Shown here piece by piece: positions 2-15,713 of a stretch of DNA of 32,665 nucleotides; the stretch's first letter is position 1, and each line of letters starts with the position of its first letter. Source of the DNA: Rhodocyclales bacterium (lineage in GTDB: Bacteria > Pseudomonadota > Gammaproteobacteria > Burkholderiales > Rhodocyclaceae). Made by a program: the position numbers and the translations under genes. Location: positions 1 through 32,665 of the forward strand of contig JAPLQZ010000156.1 of assembly GCA_026399415.1 (NCBI GenBank). Direction: 5' to 3'. Below the pieces are notes generated by a model. That model was not told the DNA's origin. It was given only the letters and a program-made list of their open reading frames with translations, and did no database searches.

Positions 2-1291
2 GCCGGAGTCGCGGCCGACGAAATCGCCGACCCCCGGCCGTGGGCGGAACTGCTGCGGCAGTGGTCGACCTTCCATCCGGAATTTGCCTATCTGCCGCGC
101 AAGTTCAAGGTGGCGATAAGCGGCTCCAGAGAGGATCGCACGGCACTCCTGGTACATGACCTCGGCCTGCAACTGGTAAGGAACGGCGGTGGCGAGCTCG
201 GCTTTGCGGTGCACGCCGGGGGAGGCCTTGGCCGCACTCCACTACTGGCGCAAAAGCTGGTCGATTTTCTGCCCTGGCAACATCTCTTGACCTATTGCGA
301 AGCGCTGCTGCGGGTGTACAACCGTTTCGGCCGCCGCGACAACATCTACAAGGCGCGCATCAAGATTCTGGTCAAAGCCATTGGCAGCGAAGAGTTCGCG
401 CGCCAGGTGGAAGCGGAATGGGCACATCTGAAGGATGGTCCTTCGACGCTCACAGAGGCCGAAGTAGATCGCGTCGCCGCACAGTTTGCCGCGCCCAACT
501 ACGAGAATCTTGCCAGCGAGGATCTCTGCCACATTGCCTTCCAGCGCGAAGACAAAGCCTACGCACGCTGGGTGGAACGCAACGTGCACCCGCACCGGGT
601 TCCCGGCTATGCCGCTGTCACTCTGTCGCTGAAAAAACCTGGGGCATCTCCCGGCGACGCCACTTCGGCGCAAATGGAAGAAGCGGCAGAACTCGCCGAG
701 CGCTTCAGCTTCGGTGAAATTCGCGTTTCCCATGAACAGAATCTGATTCTCGCCGACGTCCCGCAGCGTGATCTATACACGATCTGGCAGCGCGCCAAGG
801 CCACCGGACTGGCGAGCCCGACGGTGGGCCTGCTGGCCGACCTGATCTGCTGCCCCGGCGGTGATTTCTGCTCGCTGGCCAATGCCAAGTCCCTGCCGAT
901 TGCCGAGGCTGTCCTCGATCGCTTCGCCGATCTCGACTACCTGCATGACGTTGGCGAGATCGAGCTCAATATCTCCGGTTGCGTAAACTCCTGCGGCCAC
1001 CATTATCTGGGTGCGATCGGCATTCTCGGCGTCGACAAGCACGGCGAGGAGTGGTACCAGATCACCATGGGTGGCGCCCAAGGCAACGCAGCGGTCATTG
1101 GCGAAACCCTTGGTCCTTCCTTCGCCGCGGCAGACGTGCCGGATGTCATCGAGCAGCTGATCGAAACCTATCTTGTTTGCCGCCATGTCGATGAGAGCTT
1201 CAGTGACACCGTACGCCGTATCGGACTGGAACCCTTCCGTGCTTCGGTCTATTCCAACACCACCTCGCAAAGGAAAACTGCAAATGCGTAA
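2..1291 (+). CDS. cysI: Sulfite/nitrite reductase hemoprotein (CysI-like), 5' end outside window
   Basis: This is the siroheme and [4Fe-4S] enzyme that reduces sulfite to sulfide in cytoplasmic sulfate assimilation. The reading frame is open from base 2, so the ORF-track start (GTG at 110) is internal: codons before it read FHPEFAYLPRKFKVAI, a conserved stretch of the family. About 429 residues are present and the N-terminal part is missing. The cluster and siroheme ligands are visible as C-x5-C (CPGGDFC, near base 851) and C-x3-C (GCVNSCGHH, near 978). The gene heads a sulfate reduction operon and its end overlaps the DUF934 gene by 8 bases. A nitrite reductase role cannot be excluded from the motif alone, but the cysH/cysD/cysN neighbours favour sulfite. 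Confidence 0.93.
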   Translation, partial: AGVAADEIADPRPWAELLRQWSTFHPEFAYLPRKFKVAISGSREDRTALLVHDLGLQLVRNGGGELGFAVHAGGGLGRTPLLAQKLVDFLPWQHLLTYCEALLRVYNRFGRRDNIYKARIKILVKAIGSEEFARQVEAEWAHLKDGPSTLTEAEVDRVAAQFAAPNYENLASEDLCHIAFQREDKAYARWVERNVHPHRVPGYAAVTLSLKKPGASPGDATSAQMEEAAELAERFSFGEIRVSHEQNLILADVPQRDLYTIWQRAKATGLASPTVGLLADLICCPGGDFCSLANAKSLPIAEAVLDRFADLDYLHDVGEIELNISGCVNSCGHHYLGAIGILGVDKHGEEWYQITMGGAQGNAAVIGETLGPSFAAADVPDVIEQLIETYLVCRHVDESFSDTVRRIGLEPFRASVYSNTTSQRKTANA

Positions 1292-1820
1292 CTTGCAAAC
1301 CCATCGACTCATCAAGGAACGTCTTCTGCAGGAGGACGTATGGAAAGTCGTCACCCTGATCGACGGCCAGCCCGAACTTGACGTGTGCCTGCCGGTCGGC
1401 CCGCTGTTGGTGCCGATCTCGGTCTGGAAGGCGAAGAAGGACTGCCTGATCCATCGTGAATACGAGCATGGCACTCCGCTCGGAATCTGGTTGTCACCTG
1501 ACGACGATCCGGCCGAAATCGCCAAGGACGTCGACGACTTCACGGTTATTGCCGTGCATTTCCCGAAATTCACCGACGGCCGCGGCTATTCGACCGCCCG
1601 CCTGCTGCGCGAGCGCTATGGCTATGACGGCGAACTGCGCGCCTTTGGCGATATCGGCCGCGACCAGATCTTCTTCCTCAATCGGGTGGGCTTCGACAGC
1701 TTCCTGATCGGCGAAGGACGCAATGCTGAAGAGGCCCTTGCCGCATTCGACGACTTCCCCGAGGCCTATCAGGCGGGAGCCGATTTGCCTATTCCTCTGT
1801 TCCGCCGCCGCGCGGCCTAA
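1284..1820 (+). CDS. DUF934 family protein, sulfite-reductase-associated
   Basis: This is a 178-residue protein of the DUF934 family, whose members commonly sit next to cysI and cysH in proteobacteria and are often labelled oxidoreductase-like; the biochemical role is not established. The conserved core is seen around DGRGYSTARLLRERYGYDG and GDIGRDQIFFLNRVGF. The ORF track starts at 1173, inside cysI. The ATG at 1284 is chosen because AAAGGA lies just upstream, the protein then starts MRNLQTHRLI, and the overlap with cysI is only 8 bases, typical of translational coupling. The protein is acidic, with no signal peptide or membrane segment. A supporting role in sulfite reduction is inferred from context only. 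Confidence 0.88.
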   Translation: MRNLQTHRLIKERLLQEDVWKVVTLIDGQPELDVCLPVGPLLVPISVWKAKKDCLIHREYEHGTPLGIWLSPDDDPAEIAKDVDDFTVIAVHFPKFTDGRGYSTARLLRERYGYDGELRAFGDIGRDQIFFLNRVGFDSFLIGEGRNAEEALAAFDDFPEAYQAGADLPIPLFRRRAA

Positions 1821-1830
1821 CGAGAGCATC

Positions 1831-2595
1831 ATGATCCGAGAATCGCTGCCTGACCTGGCCAATCCTGAGTTGGTGGACATCGTTGCGGCAAAGGCCGCGC
1901 GAGCCATTACGCTCTTGCGCAACATAGCGCGCGACTACGCACCGGTAGTCTTCGCCAACAGTCTGGGTGCCGAGGACATGGTGCTGACCGACCTGATCTG
2001 GCGCGAGGAAATCAACATTGCGATATTTTCGCTGGATACCGGTCGTCTTCCGGTCGAAACCTACGATTTGATCCATCAAACGGAAAAACACTACGGACGC
2101 AAACTGGACATTTTCTTTCCACGTCACGAAGCGGTCGAAGCCTACGCCCGCCGCCACGGCAGCCACGGCTTTTACGATTCGGTGGAGGCGCGCAAGGCGT
2201 GCTGTCACGCGCGCAAGGTCGAGCCGCTGCAACGCGCGCTGGCCGGCAAGGGAGCCTGGGTCACCGGCCTGCGTGCAGGCCAGTCGGCGACGCGGGACAG
2301 GCTGAAGGTCATCAGCCAGGACACGACGAACAACCTGGTCAAGGCGAGCCCCCTGACGGACTGGAGCGAAGCCGAAGTCTGGGTTTATCTGAGAGCCAAC
2401 AACGTGCCCTACAACCGGCTGCATGATCGCAACTATCCGAGCATCGGCTGCGCTCCCTGCACCCGTGCCATCCAGCCCGGCGAGGATGTGCGCGCCGGCC
2501 GCTGGTGGTGGGAAACCCCGGAAACCAAAGAATGCGGCTTGCATCTGGTGGATGGCCGCCTGCAACGTACTTCAAGACAGGTGGCCGAGGCATGA
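1831..2595 (+). CDS. cysH: Adenylylsulfate (APS) reductase, thioredoxin/glutathione-dependent, Fe-S type
   Basis: This 254-residue cytoplasmic enzyme reduces activated sulfate to sulfite. Two cysteine pairs are visible, C124-C125 (KACCHARKV) and C207-x2-C210 (GCAPCTRA). In this family they bind a [4Fe-4S] cluster and mark enzymes that prefer APS over PAPS. The catalytic cysteine is C235 in KECGLH. The N-terminal FANSLGAEDMVLTDLI is the adenylyl-binding region of the PAPS-reductase fold. The ORF-track start at 1723 lies inside the DUF934 gene; the ATG at 1831 (MIRESLPDL), ten bases past the DUF934 stop, is preferred, though its ribosome binding site (GAGAG) is modest. The stop overlaps the cysD start as ATGA. 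No cysC is visible in the window, which fits direct use of APS. Confidence 0.93.
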   Translation: MIRESLPDLANPELVDIVAAKAARAITLLRNIARDYAPVVFANSLGAEDMVLTDLIWREEINIAIFSLDTGRLPVETYDLIHQTEKHYGRKLDIFFPRHEAVEAYARRHGSHGFYDSVEARKACCHARKVEPLQRALAGKGAWVTGLRAGQSATRDRLKVISQDTTNNLVKASPLTDWSEAEVWVYLRANNVPYNRLHDRNYPSIGCAPCTRAIQPGEDVRAGRWWWETPETKECGLHLVDGRLQRTSRQVAEA

Positions 2596-3515
2596 GTACG
2601 CTGGCCTTGCATCAGCGCGCTACGCTGTCGCATCTGGATTGGCTGGAGGCGGAGTCCATCCACATCCTGCGCGAAGTAGCCGGGCAATGCGCCAATCCCA
2701 CCCTGTTGTTTTCCGGCGGTAAGGACTCGCTGGTCCTGTTGCGCCTGGCTGAAAAGGCTTTTCGGCCAGGACGATTTCCCTTTCCTCTGCTCAATATCGA
2801 TACCGGTCACAACTACGACGAAGTAATCGATTTCCGCGACTCACGCGCCTGCCAGCTGAATGAACGGCTGATCGTGCGTTCGGTCGAGGATTCGATGCGG
2901 CGGGGCACCGTGGTGCTGAAATCGCCCGGCGAGTCGCGCAACAAACATCAATCCGTCACGCTGCTCGAAGCCATTGCCGAATTCGGCTTCGACTGCTGTA
3001 TCGGCGGCGCCCGGCGCGACGAGGAAAAGGCCCGGGCCAAGGAACGCATCTTTTCCTTTCGCGACGAATTCGGCCAGTGGGACCCGAAAAACCAGCGGCC
3101 GGAATTATGGGACCTGTTCAACGCACGCGTGCACAAGGGCGAGAACATCCGCGCCTTCCCCATTTCGAACTGGACCGAACTCGATGTCTGGCAATACATC
3201 GAGCGTGAAAAGCTCGCCTTGCCTTCGATCTACTTCGCGCACAAACGGCAGGTGGTCAGGAAGAACGGGCTGTTGCAGCCGGTGACTGAACTGACCCCGG
3301 CGCGCGCTGGCGACGTCGTCGAGGAACTGACGGTGCGTTTTCGCACCGTGGGCGACATTACCTGCACTGCGCCGGTCTTGTCGGATGCCGATACGGTCGC
3401 CCGCATCATTGAGGAAACGGCGATAACCACGATTACCGAACGGGGTGAGACCCGTCTCGACGACCAGACCTCGGAAGCCTCCATGGAACAACGCAAGAAG
3501 GAAGGATACTTTTGA
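2592..3515 (+). CDS. cysD: Sulfate adenylyltransferase subunit 2 (ATP sulfurylase small subunit)
   Basis: CysD carries the ATP-pyrophosphatase domain that joins sulfate to AMP, forming APS, in a complex with the GTPase CysN. The protein is 307 residues, close to the usual family length. The PP-loop is SGGKDS at residues 41-46, and the C-terminus is QRKKEGYF, typical of CysD. The ORF track begins at 2505 inside cysH. The true start is the ATG at 2592, which overlaps the cysH stop (ATGA), so translation is probably coupled; a GGCCGAGG stretch upstream may serve as ribosome binding site. The stop codon overlaps the cysN start by one base. Nothing in the sequence looks abnormal. Confidence 0.96.
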   Translation: MSTLALHQRATLSHLDWLEAESIHILREVAGQCANPTLLFSGGKDSLVLLRLAEKAFRPGRFPFPLLNIDTGHNYDEVIDFRDSRACQLNERLIVRSVEDSMRRGTVVLKSPGESRNKHQSVTLLEAIAEFGFDCCIGGARRDEEKARAKERIFSFRDEFGQWDPKNQRPELWDLFNARVHKGENIRAFPISNWTELDVWQYIEREKLALPSIYFAHKRQVVRKNGLLQPVTELTPARAGDVVEELTVRFRTVGDITCTAPVLSDADTVARIIEETAITTITERGETRLDDQTSEASMEQRKKEGYF

Positions 3516-4795
3516 TGAGCGCGCCTGAGCGTCTGCCGGCGATCGACAACGGCCTGCTGCGCTTCCTCACCTGTGGCAGTGTTGACGATGGCAAGAGCAC
3601 TTTGATCGGCAGACTGCTCTACGATACCAAGACCATCCTGGCCGATACTCTGCACGCCATCACACGCACCTCTGAGCGGCGCGGGCTCGAAACGGTCGAT
3701 CTCTCGCTGCTGACCGACGGACTGCAAGCCGAACGCGAACAAGGCATCACGATCGACGTGGCCTATCGCTATTTCACCACCGGACGACGCAAGTACATCA
3801 TCGCCGACGCCCCAGGCCACGAGCAGTACACACGCAACATGTTCACGGCGGCGTCGACCGCGAACCTGGCGATCATCCTGATCGACGCGCGCAAGGGAGT
3901 GCTGACCCAGACCCGGCGCCATTCCTATCTCGCGCATCTGCTCGGCATTCCACACATCGTGGTGGCGATCAACAAGATGGATCTGGTTGACTTCGATCAG
4001 GCCACCTACGAGCGAATCCGCGGCGAGTACCGCGAATTTGCAGCAACTCTTGGTATCGGTGACGTCAGCTTCATTCCGCTGTCGGCGCTCGACGGTGACA
4101 TGATTGTCGATCGCGGCGCCCGGCTGGACTGGTATCAGGGGCCGACGCTGCTCGACATACTCGAGGATGCACCCGGCGCACACAGCGAGCGCGACGAGCC
4201 TTTCCGCTTTCCGGTGCAGTTTGTCTGCCGGCCACAGAAGTCCGGAAATCCGAAACTCCACGATTATCGAGGCTTCATGGGCCGGGTGGAATCCGGCGAG
4301 ATCGGCGTGGGAGACGAAGTGTGGGTGTTGCCATCGGAGAAGCGCACGCGGATCAAGGCCATCGAAGTCCACGGCCACTCGCTGCCGCGGGCGATTCCCG
4401 AGCAGTCAGTCACACTCTTGCTCGAAGACGAAATCGATGTTTCCCGCGGCGACATGATCGTTCGTGCCGAAGAGTCGGCGCTGGTGACACGGCGCATCGA
4501 GACCATGCTCTGCTGGCTGGACGAAACACCGCTCGACCCGCAACGAAAATACCTGATCCGTCAGACCACGCGCGAAACCAGGGCGGTGATCGAGAGCATC
4601 GTCTACCGGCTGGACATAAACTCGCTGCTGCAGAAACCTGCCGAGCGTCTGGAAATGAACGACATTGCTCGCGTGTGCTTTAGGCTCGCTCAACCGCTGT
4701 GCGTCGATACCTACGTCGCGAACCGCTCCACCGGAGCCTTCATCGTCATCGATGAGACGGCCAACAGCACCGTGGGTGCCGGGATGATTATCTGA
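3515..4795 (+). CDS. cysN: Sulfate adenylyltransferase subunit 1 (CysN GTPase, no CysC domain)
   Basis: CysN is an EF-Tu-like GTPase whose GTP hydrolysis drives APS synthesis by CysD. Its 426 residues contain GSVDDGKST (G1, 21-29), DAPGH (G3, 98-102) and NKMD (G4, 153-156), followed by beta-barrel domains. It ends after VGAGMII with no APS-kinase extension, so it is a plain CysN and not a CysNC fusion. The ORF track uses a TTG at 3512; the ATG at 3515 is preferred because it forms the coupled TGATG junction with the cysD stop and has GAAGGA upstream. It is the last gene of the operon, followed 22 bases later by a terminator. Confidence 0.96.
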   Translation: MSAPERLPAIDNGLLRFLTCGSVDDGKSTLIGRLLYDTKTILADTLHAITRTSERRGLETVDLSLLTDGLQAEREQGITIDVAYRYFTTGRRKYIIADAPGHEQYTRNMFTAASTANLAIILIDARKGVLTQTRRHSYLAHLLGIPHIVVAINKMDLVDFDQATYERIRGEYREFAATLGIGDVSFIPLSALDGDMIVDRGARLDWYQGPTLLDILEDAPGAHSERDEPFRFPVQFVCRPQKSGNPKLHDYRGFMGRVESGEIGVGDEVWVLPSEKRTRIKAIEVHGHSLPRAIPEQSVTLLLEDEIDVSRGDMIVRAEESALVTRRIETMLCWLDETPLDPQRKYLIRQTTRETRAVIESIVYRLDINSLLQKPAERLEMNDIARVCFRLAQPLCVDTYVANRSTGAFIVIDETANSTVGAGMII

Positions 4796-8369: not shown

Positions 8370-9698
8370 TCAGCGGGCCGGGAAACCGGCTCCCTTGAAA
8401 TTGGCCTTCTTCAGGAGACTTTCATACTGATGCGACATTACATAGGCCTGCACCTGCGACATGAAGTCCATTGTCACGACAACGATGATCAACAGGCTGG
8501 TGCCCCCGAAATAGAACGGCACATTCCACTTCAAGATAAGAAACTCCGGTAGCAGACAAACCACCGTGATATAGATGGCGCCGGCCAGAGTCAGGCGGGT
8601 CAGAATCTTGTCAATGTAGCGAGCTGTCTGGTCGCCGGGGCGAATGCCGGGAACAAACGCACCGCTCTTCTTCAGGTTGTCGGCCGTCTCCTTGGAATTG
8701 AACACCAGCGCGGTGTAGAAGAAGCAGAAAAATACGATTGCAGTGGCGTAGAGCATCACGTAGATCGGTTGCCCGGGGGACAGCGTGGCCGCAATGTCCT
8801 TGAGCCAACGCATGCCGTCACCCGATCCAAACCAGCCGGCAGCAGTAGCCGGGAACAGGATGATCGAGGATGCAAAGATGGGAGGAATAACGCCCGACAT
8901 ATTGAGTTTCAATGGCAGATGGGAGCTTTGGCCGCCGTAGACCTTGTTGCCAACCTGGCGCTTGGCATAGTTCACCAGGATCTTGCGCTGGCCTTTTTCG
9001 ACGAACACCACGAAGCCTGTGACCAGAACCACCAGAACGCAAATGAACAACGCCGAAATCGGGTGCATCGCACCGGTACGAACGAGTTCGAAGAGGCCGC
9101 CCAGTGCATTCGGCAAACCAGCCACGATGCCAGCGAAAATAATGATCGAAATGCCGTTGCCCAAACCTCGCTCGGTAATCTGCTCACCAAGCCACATCAG
9201 AAACATTGTCCCGGTCAGCAAGGTCAGCACCGTAACGAAGCGGAACAGGCCGCCCGGGTCGAGCACCAGTCCGGCCTGCGATTCAAGTGCAATTGCGATA
9301 CCGAGCCCCTGGAATAACGCCAGGGCGACAGTGCCGTAACGTGTGTATTGAGTAATCTTGCGGCGCCCGGCCTCACCCTCCTTCTTCAAAGCCTCCATCG
9401 ACGGCACAGAGATCGTCATGAGTTGCATGATGATCGACGAAGAAATGTAGGGCATGATGCCGAGCGCGAATAGCGTGAAGCGCGACAACGCACCGCCCGA
9501 AAAAAGGTTGAAGACGCCAAGAATTCCGCCCTGCTGACCCTGGAACAACTCCGCCAACTTGACAGGGTCAATTCCGGGCACGGGGATGTGCGCACCGATT
9601 CGATATACCACCAGCGCGCCCAGCAGGAACCAGAGCCGGCGCCAAAGGTCGCCAAACTTGCCAGTCTTGCCGAGAGATGCTGCCTGGGGGCTTGCCAC
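8370..9698 (-). CDS. secY: Preprotein translocase subunit SecY
   Basis: SecY is the channel of the Sec translocon in the inner membrane and works with SecE, SecG and SecA. The 442-residue protein has about ten hydrophobic segments and typical stretches such as [21 protein letters not shown] and [19 protein letters not shown]. The start is a GTG at 9698, with GAGGA eight bases upstream. It follows rplO by 21 bases in the spc block and is coupled to infA downstream. Length and content are normal. Confidence 0.97.
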
Positions 9699-10907: not shown

Positions 10908-11261
10908 TTAGAACTTGAGTCCGCCCTCACGGGCGGCTTCAGCCAGCGCCTTGACGCGGCCGTGGTAGTGGAAACCGGAGCGGTCGAAAGCAACCTGCTC
11001 GATGCCGGCCGCTTTGGCCCGCTCGGCGATGAGTTTGCCAACCGTCTTGGCGGCATTGACGTTACCGCCATTCGGAACCTGGCTCCGCACTTCCGGCTCC
11101 ATGGTCGAAGCGGCAGCGAGCACACGGGTGCCGCAGCCGGAGAAAATCTGGGCAGAGATATGCAAGTTGCTGCGATGCACCGCGAGGCGCACCACTTTGA
11201 GCTCCGCAATTTTGGCGCGGGTTTTGCGCGCCCTGCGCAGACGAGCCTGTTTCTTTTCCAT
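10908..11261 (-). other. rplR: L18 moiety of the fusion, retaining its native ATG (rplR)
   Basis: The L18 segment is complete at 117 residues and begins with its own ATG at 11261. The bases before it (GGTATGCAATC) contain no purine-rich Shine-Dalgarno at normal spacing, and there is no L6 stop codon nearby to allow termination-reinitiation. Separate L18 production would therefore need weak internal initiation or proteolysis of the fusion. In other genomes this segment is the independent gene rplR. Confidence 0.85.
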
Positions 11262-11759
11262 GATTGCATACCGGACGCCCTTGCCCTTGTAGGGCTCCGG
11301 AGACCGGTAGGCACGCACTTCAGCGGCCACCTGACCAACCACCTGCTTGTCGATCCCCTTGATCAGGATCTCAGTTTGGGTCGGCGTTTCAACTTTGATG
11401 CCGTTCGGCATATCGTGCGCGACTGGGTGCGAAAAGCCGAGCGTTAGGTTCAGCTTGGTTCCCTGAGCCTGCGCACGATATCCAACGCCGACCAGGGTCA
11501 GCTTCTTCTCAAAGCCCTTGGTTACGCCAATCATCATGTTATTCAGCAGCGCGCGCATCGTGCCCGACATGGCGCCCGCGTTGGGAGCACCCTCTATGGC
11601 ACGACAGAGCAACTTTTCACCGTCTCTCTCGATTTTCACTGCCGGCAACAAGAACTGCTTCAGCGTCCCCAGCGGCCCCTTGACAGCGACCTCGGCATCG
11701 GAAAGCGTGACTTCAACGCCTTTGGGCACATCAACCGGATACTTTGCAATACGTGACAT
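10908..11759 (-). CDS. rplF-rplR: In-frame fusion of 50S ribosomal proteins L6 and L18
   Basis: One 283-codon frame encodes two ribosomal proteins. Residues 1-165 are L6 ([17 protein letters not shown] to [13 protein letters not shown]), which binds 23S rRNA near the factor-binding site. Residue 166 is a single Ile, and residues 167-283 are a full 117-residue L18 ([17 protein letters not shown] to AREGGLKF), which binds 5S rRNA. L6 is normally about 177 residues, with roughly 12 acidic and lysine-rich residues after RYA, then a stop and a separate rplR ribosome binding site; all of these are absent. Both neighbours, rpsH and rpsE, are intact and standard. The gene could be a real fusion, a recent in-frame deletion, or an assembly error. 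L18 could still start at its own ATG, though no good ribosome binding site remains. Confidence 0.9.
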
Positions 11760-14816: not shown

Positions 14817-15713
14817 TTACTCCTTGCCTTCTTTCGCTGCGCTATCGACACCCTCGGTCTTGGCCGGGGCCTTGCGAATACGCTTGACGGGGGTCTTTGG
14901 TGCTGCAGCAACGGCTTCCGGCTTGGCTTCCGGCTTAACTTCTGCAGCCTTCTTGGCCGGGGCGCGACGGGCGACGGGCTTGGCTTCGCCTTCGCCTTCG
15001 GTCCGGGGCTTCCCGGGAGGGCTGCGGCGCGGCTTGCGCTGATCATCAACAGCAGGCTCGGGAGTCGCCAGCAGAGCTTCACTGCGTGAAAGAATCTCGC
15101 CCTTGAACACCCATACCTTGATACCGATGATGCCATACGTGGTCTTCGCCTCGGCAGTACCGTAGTCGATGTCGGCACGCAGCGTATGCAGAGGCACGCG
15201 ACCTTCGCGATACCACTCCCTGCGGGCAATTTCGGCACCGTTCAGGCGTCCGGAACTCATGATCTTGATGCCCTGGGCACCGAGTCGCATGGCATTCTGC
15301 ATCGCCCGCTTCATGGCGCGGCGGAACATGATGCGCTTTTCGAGTTGCTGGGCAATCGAGTCGGCAATCAGTTGCGCATCGATTTCCGGTTTACGTATCT
15401 CTTCGATATTGACATGCACCGGCACGCCCATCTTGCGCTGAAGTTCAGCCTTCAGATGCTCGATGTCTTCACCCTTCTTGCCAATGACGACGCCCGGGCG
15501 AGCGCTATAAACCGTAACTCGTGCATTCTTGGCGGGGCGCTCAATCACGACACGACCGACAGACGCGTGTGCCAGTTTCTTTTTCAGGTATTCACGAACC
15601 TCAAGGTCTTCCTTGAGCATCTGAGGAAAAGTCTTGCTACTGGCGTACCAGCGGGAAGTCCAGTTGCGTGTGACCGAAAGACGAAAACCGATCGGATGAA
15701 TCTTTTGTCCCAT
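14817..15713 (-). CDS. rpsC: 30S ribosomal protein S3 with long basic C-terminal tail
   Basis: S3 lines the mRNA entry tunnel and has helicase activity. Residues 1-210 are standard: [12 protein letters not shown], the KH-domain loop [15 protein letters not shown] at about 74-88, and the C-terminal domain ending [13 protein letters not shown]. From about 211 to 298 there is an 88-residue tail rich in Lys, Ala, Pro and Glu, with repeating KPEA and APAK units, probably disordered. E. coli S3 has 233 residues, so this tail is long; extended tails are known in betaproteobacteria. No frame disturbance is seen. It lies between rplV and rplP. Confidence 0.97.

Follow-up and report, generated by a model that had tools for sequence, protein, structure and literature searches.

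The ribosomal proteins L6 and L18 sit in different parts of the 50S subunit, and we know of no earlier L6::L18 fusion, so that the one discussed below would be the first if real. In the spc operon of Escherichia coli (NC_000913, 3445244-3446140) both proteins are encoded separately by rplF and rplR, with a spacer of only 9 nt between the two genes. As for the quality of deposited sequences, uncurated metagenome-assembled genomes (MAGs) are known to carry local assembly errors which damage genes and through which wrong gene sequences enter databases (PMC7111523).

Here, we analysed a stretch of 32,665 nt (the window), which is contig C272 of a Sulfuritalea-like assembly (G000; 3.1 Mb, 315 contigs, estimated completeness 85.8%). 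The source organism belongs to Sulfuritalea or to a very close relative of this genus. In its contig, rplF and rplR are joined to a single open frame, which is probably a small local error of metagenome assembly and not a new fused ribosomal protein.

Results

The original prediction of one continuous frame comprising L6, a single isoleucine and L18 was confirmed, and the strand, which it had not given, is the minus strand (Table 1). In profile searches, residues 2-165 match positions 1-164 of 175 of TIGR03654 (L6_bact) with 222 bits; the score of this core exceeds the cut-off of 168.55 bits, but the complete C-terminal tail and the own stop codon, both present in relatives, are absent in the contig. 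Residues 169-283 cover the whole of TIGR00060 (L18_bact; 1-114 of 114) with 121.9 bits, likewise above the cut-off (87.85 bits), and Pfam matches were consistent with the assignment of both parts. The contig reads ...CGGTATGCAATCATGGAAAAG... at the junction. A second copy of L6 or L18 was not found in the 315 contigs of the assembly at its 85.8% completeness.

Table 1. Features of the joined rplF-rplR locus (positions refer to the window).
Feature	Position	Strand	Evidence
Fused open frame, L6-Ile-L18, 283 codons plus stop	10908..11759	minus	Frame and translation
rplF part, L6 residues 1-165, ending KGKGVRYA, without the 12 residues that normally form the tail (relatives: DEVVVIKETKKK)	11265..11759	minus	TIGR03654; tails of relatives
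Junction; 51 nt of comparable relatives absent between bases 11265 and 11266	11265..11266		DNA alignment to G001, protein comparison with 20 relatives, breakpoint mapping
Ile codon ATC, leftover of the rplR leader (relatives: GCTGAATC-ATG)	11262..11264	minus	Comparison with relatives
rplR part, complete 117-residue L18 with native ATG; ribosome-binding site (GAGG) in the missing segment	10911..11261	minus	TIGR00060
Stop codon of the fused frame	10908..10910	minus	Read from the sequence

Alignment of the window to G001, a complete genome of the genus, revealed one large gap in a coding region, which is exactly 51 nt long and lies at the junction; the rest of the window differs by ordinary small indels, and no other gene is disrupted. 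Because this gap is the only large one in coding regions across the 32.7 kb, the fused frame of 283 codons is far beyond chance. The absent segment, which reads CGACGAAGTGGTTGTCATCAAGGAAACCAAGAAGAAATAATCGAGGCGCTG in G001, comprises the L6 tail of about 12 residues, the TAA stop codon, the spacer and the ribosome-binding site (GAGG). This bears out the earlier view that L6 lacks its tail, that neither stop, spacer nor ribosome-binding site precedes L18, and that tail, stop and spacer were lost in a single frame-preserving step. Correctly, too, the isoleucine codon had been tentatively traced to the old rplR leader, as relatives read ...GCTGAATCATGG at this position. The gap length is divisible by three, as expected for one in three gaps by chance. 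Between the TATGC/CGACG and GCTG/AATC ends seen in relatives, neither repeat nor microhomology was found at the join, i.e., no overlap which would explain a collapse of the assembly.

Two further regions of the window deserve mention on their own account. The S3 protein encoded at 14817-15713 has a long C-terminal extension rich in Ala, Pro and Lys, whose length differs among Sulfuritalea genomes via several in-frame indels. At 2-4795 on the plus strand, sulfate-assimilation genes resembling cysI, cysH, cysD and cysN by sequence adjoin rplQ-rpoA, and the DNA of G001 runs alongside here as well.

In every informative relative, rplF and rplR are separate genes, as the original prediction had assumed for bacteria in general. 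Within the genus (31 genomes including G000), none of the 28 other genomes with an L6 and/or L18 match carries the fusion, and a search of 299 genomes of the family gave no further full-span, stop-free L6/L18 match among the matches listed. Both genes are separate at all 80 loci examined in genome_contigs. In a phylum sample of 150 genomes, 144 of them with an L18 match, ten L18 loci whose open frames were conspicuously long (reaching 377 aa) were read individually and rejected as true fusions, the upstream part being either another frame over L6 or closed by the own stop codon of L6. In all of 5,395 complete E. coli genomes, rplF-rplR is essentially complete and free of a gap like that of G000, and the weakest among the matches listed was still full length (98.7%). 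Consequently, G000 stands alone in the genus, family, phylum and genome_contigs samples read, and independent occurrence in a further genome or clade, as expected of a natural fusion, was not observed.

Two other MAGs carry in-frame gaps of their own in L6. In G012, another Sulfuritalea MAG (contig C483; L6 gene from 7560), an independent gap of 24 nt affects the L6 tail (YKGK|VAIKETKKK) and the stop codon is kept. HGW-Betaproteobacteria-7 (L145; PHCE01000034.1, L6 gene from 2001) lacks 45 nt just before PEPYKGKG, again independently; a match of 852 nt had suggested a second fusion in this genome, which was rejected since L6 tail and stop codon are retained.

The surroundings of the breakpoint were characterised by counting exact k-mers of the S10-spc-alpha operon which recur in any of 19 relatives, with G001, not the true G000 sequence, as reference. 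At k = 51, exact sharing peaks at the site of the L6 tail and L18 start, where 14 of the 19 relatives share the sequence (operon mean 0.38); this level is unique in the operon at k = 51 and 61. In a stepwise scan, 1-2 relatives share the sequence immediately to the left of the breakpoint, compared to 8-10 from CCGACGAAG onward. The left end of the deletion is located 1 nt from a jump in sharing from 2 to 8 relatives; this comparison was made post hoc, and at k = 51 the 13.1 kb contain 11 jumps by 4 or more relatives, this one included. The left breakpoint hence lies at sequence shared between genomes, as an assembly error would predict. A chimera of two species at the join was considered and rejected, because both sides share their closest relative: L064 is among the nearest on either flank.

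A further gap was detected on contig C220 of the same assembly (L225, about 9336-9349), where 52 nt are absent from a thiolase gene together with the catalytic motif NVDGGAIALGHPVGAS. As this gap is out of frame, the Thiolase_C match of the broken frame ends at position 61 of 123. It is likely a second assembly error and possibly a real pseudogene. Candidate frame breaks in C95 (L212) and C285 (L186) were dismissed as intergenic variation or reverse-strand frames, and no further convincing ones were found in the approximately 95 kb of sampled G000 contigs aligned to G001. The L6/L18 and thiolase gaps are thus the only two of this kind in conserved genes there, leaving one additional gene-breaking gap in about 95 kb. 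In the original prediction, the intact neighbouring genes were taken to speak against poor sequence quality. The neighbours are indeed intact in comparison to G001, but the argument drawn from them is weakened by the position of the breakpoint at a branch point and by the thiolase gap in the same assembly.

Discussion

We favour a local assembly error as the origin of the fused frame, because the breakpoint lies at a shared block, the assembly contains a second damaging gap, and a fusion would burden a single-copy gene pair, in which the cell would have to cope with both the loss of the L6 tail and the one-residue tie to L18. Cross-species branch points are prone to assembler failure, and at the shared block the assembly graph would bring together contigs of related species that occur side by side. 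In a community with several Sulfuritalea species, reads from different genomes could converge on this block, the contig could end there, and an imperfect join or a local reassembly might then lose 51 nt at the start of the block. The organism itself would possess ordinary separate rplF and rplR genes, with L6 ending at about DEVVVIKETKKK and L18 being translated from its own ribosome-binding site. Since a simple k-mer collapse would need a repeat and the join has none, one has to invoke chimeric reads or a step of gap filling or scaffolding. Against an artefact also speak the common nearest relative of both flanks, the possibility that the thiolase gap marks a real pseudogene, and the fact that the L6 gaps of G000, G012 and HGW-Betaproteobacteria-7 are in frame in three out of three cases, which is more than errors alone usually give. 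Altogether, an assembly error is probable and not proven, because the coincidence at the breakpoint was sought post hoc, the k-mer reference was G001, and the error rate derives from one further gap.

A real deletion in some form is unlikely, with a minor but appreciable chance. It could be a recent in-frame event that fused rplF to rplR and led to one L6::L18 polypeptide, which the cell either tolerates intact or cleaves once it has been made; we infer each of these steps beyond the DNA sequence and regard this course of events as improbable. The preserved reading frame with intact L6 and L18 cores would fit, as would the junction without repeat, the status of both genes as sole copies in the assembly and the integrity of all other genes in the window. 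Moreover, several bacteria are viable with a uL6 truncated at its C-terminus (PMC12572303). However, the breakpoint and a cross-species branch point are 1 nt apart, the thiolase gene shows another damaging gap in G000, and no relative examined, the closest included, carries fused genes, so that the claim of the original prediction that the organism truly possesses the fusion is not supported and probably wrong. Furthermore, a linker of one residue would be hard to accommodate between L6 and L18 because of their location in different parts of the 50S subunit. That a fused polypeptide, or a polyprotein cut later, is the sole source of both proteins in this Sulfuritalea-like betaproteobacterium appears similarly doubtful.

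A deletion which merely cut the L6 tail, with L18 produced mainly via internal initiation at its native ATG and an L6 lesion like those of drug-selected uL6 truncations, seems very unlikely. The native ATG of L18 is retained, and in-frame L6 gaps do occur in the two other MAGs (G012 and HGW-Betaproteobacteria-7). In addition, rplF was mutated during tobramycin evolution (PMC5549691), and C-terminal truncations of uL6 confer aminoglycoside resistance in different bacteria (PMC12572303). Yet the ribosome-binding site is lost, and the best anti-SD pairing at the L18 ATG, as judged by a pairing calculation, amounts to -3.7 kcal/mol in G000, compared to -6.5 kcal/mol for the majority of the Sulfuritalea relatives tested. 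The remaining pairing is weak; L18 could still start there if the deletion were real. The read-through frame would, however, still give a fusion product, and everything that points to an artefact applies here equally. Finally, the deletion might exist in a minor strain whose path was picked by the assembler, while rplF and rplR are separate in the dominant strain. MAGs commonly combine several strains, and real reads spanning the join would explain why it is free of repeats. Still, such a scenario requires a viable fusion-bearing strain, and it is the most remote of the options considered here.

If the fused frame is an assembly error, as we consider probable, it cautions that strongly conserved short stretches in ribosomal operons can silently lose bases in assemblies of mixed communities, and that an error which stays in frame mimics biology. 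If true, the fusion would in turn test whether two proteins from different regions of the 50S subunit can function while linked or need to be separated by cleavage.

With respect to known systems, the locus resembles the local assembly errors described for MAGs (PMC7111523) in being a short, gene-damaging lesion of an uncurated assembly. The decisive sign of such errors is, however, a consensus without any supporting read, whereas the case of G000 is judged from the assembled sequence. With the truncated uL6 (rplF) alleles of bacteria resistant to aminoglycosides or fusidic acid, it has the loss of the L6 C-terminus in common. These alleles are laboratory- or drug-selected truncations, and the report citing them mentions no fusion to L18, unlike the frame in G000 (PMC12572303). 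Compared to the separate rplF and rplR genes of E. coli and the Sulfuritalea relatives, which retain L6 tail, stop codon, spacer and ribosome-binding site, G000 lacks all four elements and displays the same gene order and strand, the same L6 core and a complete L18.
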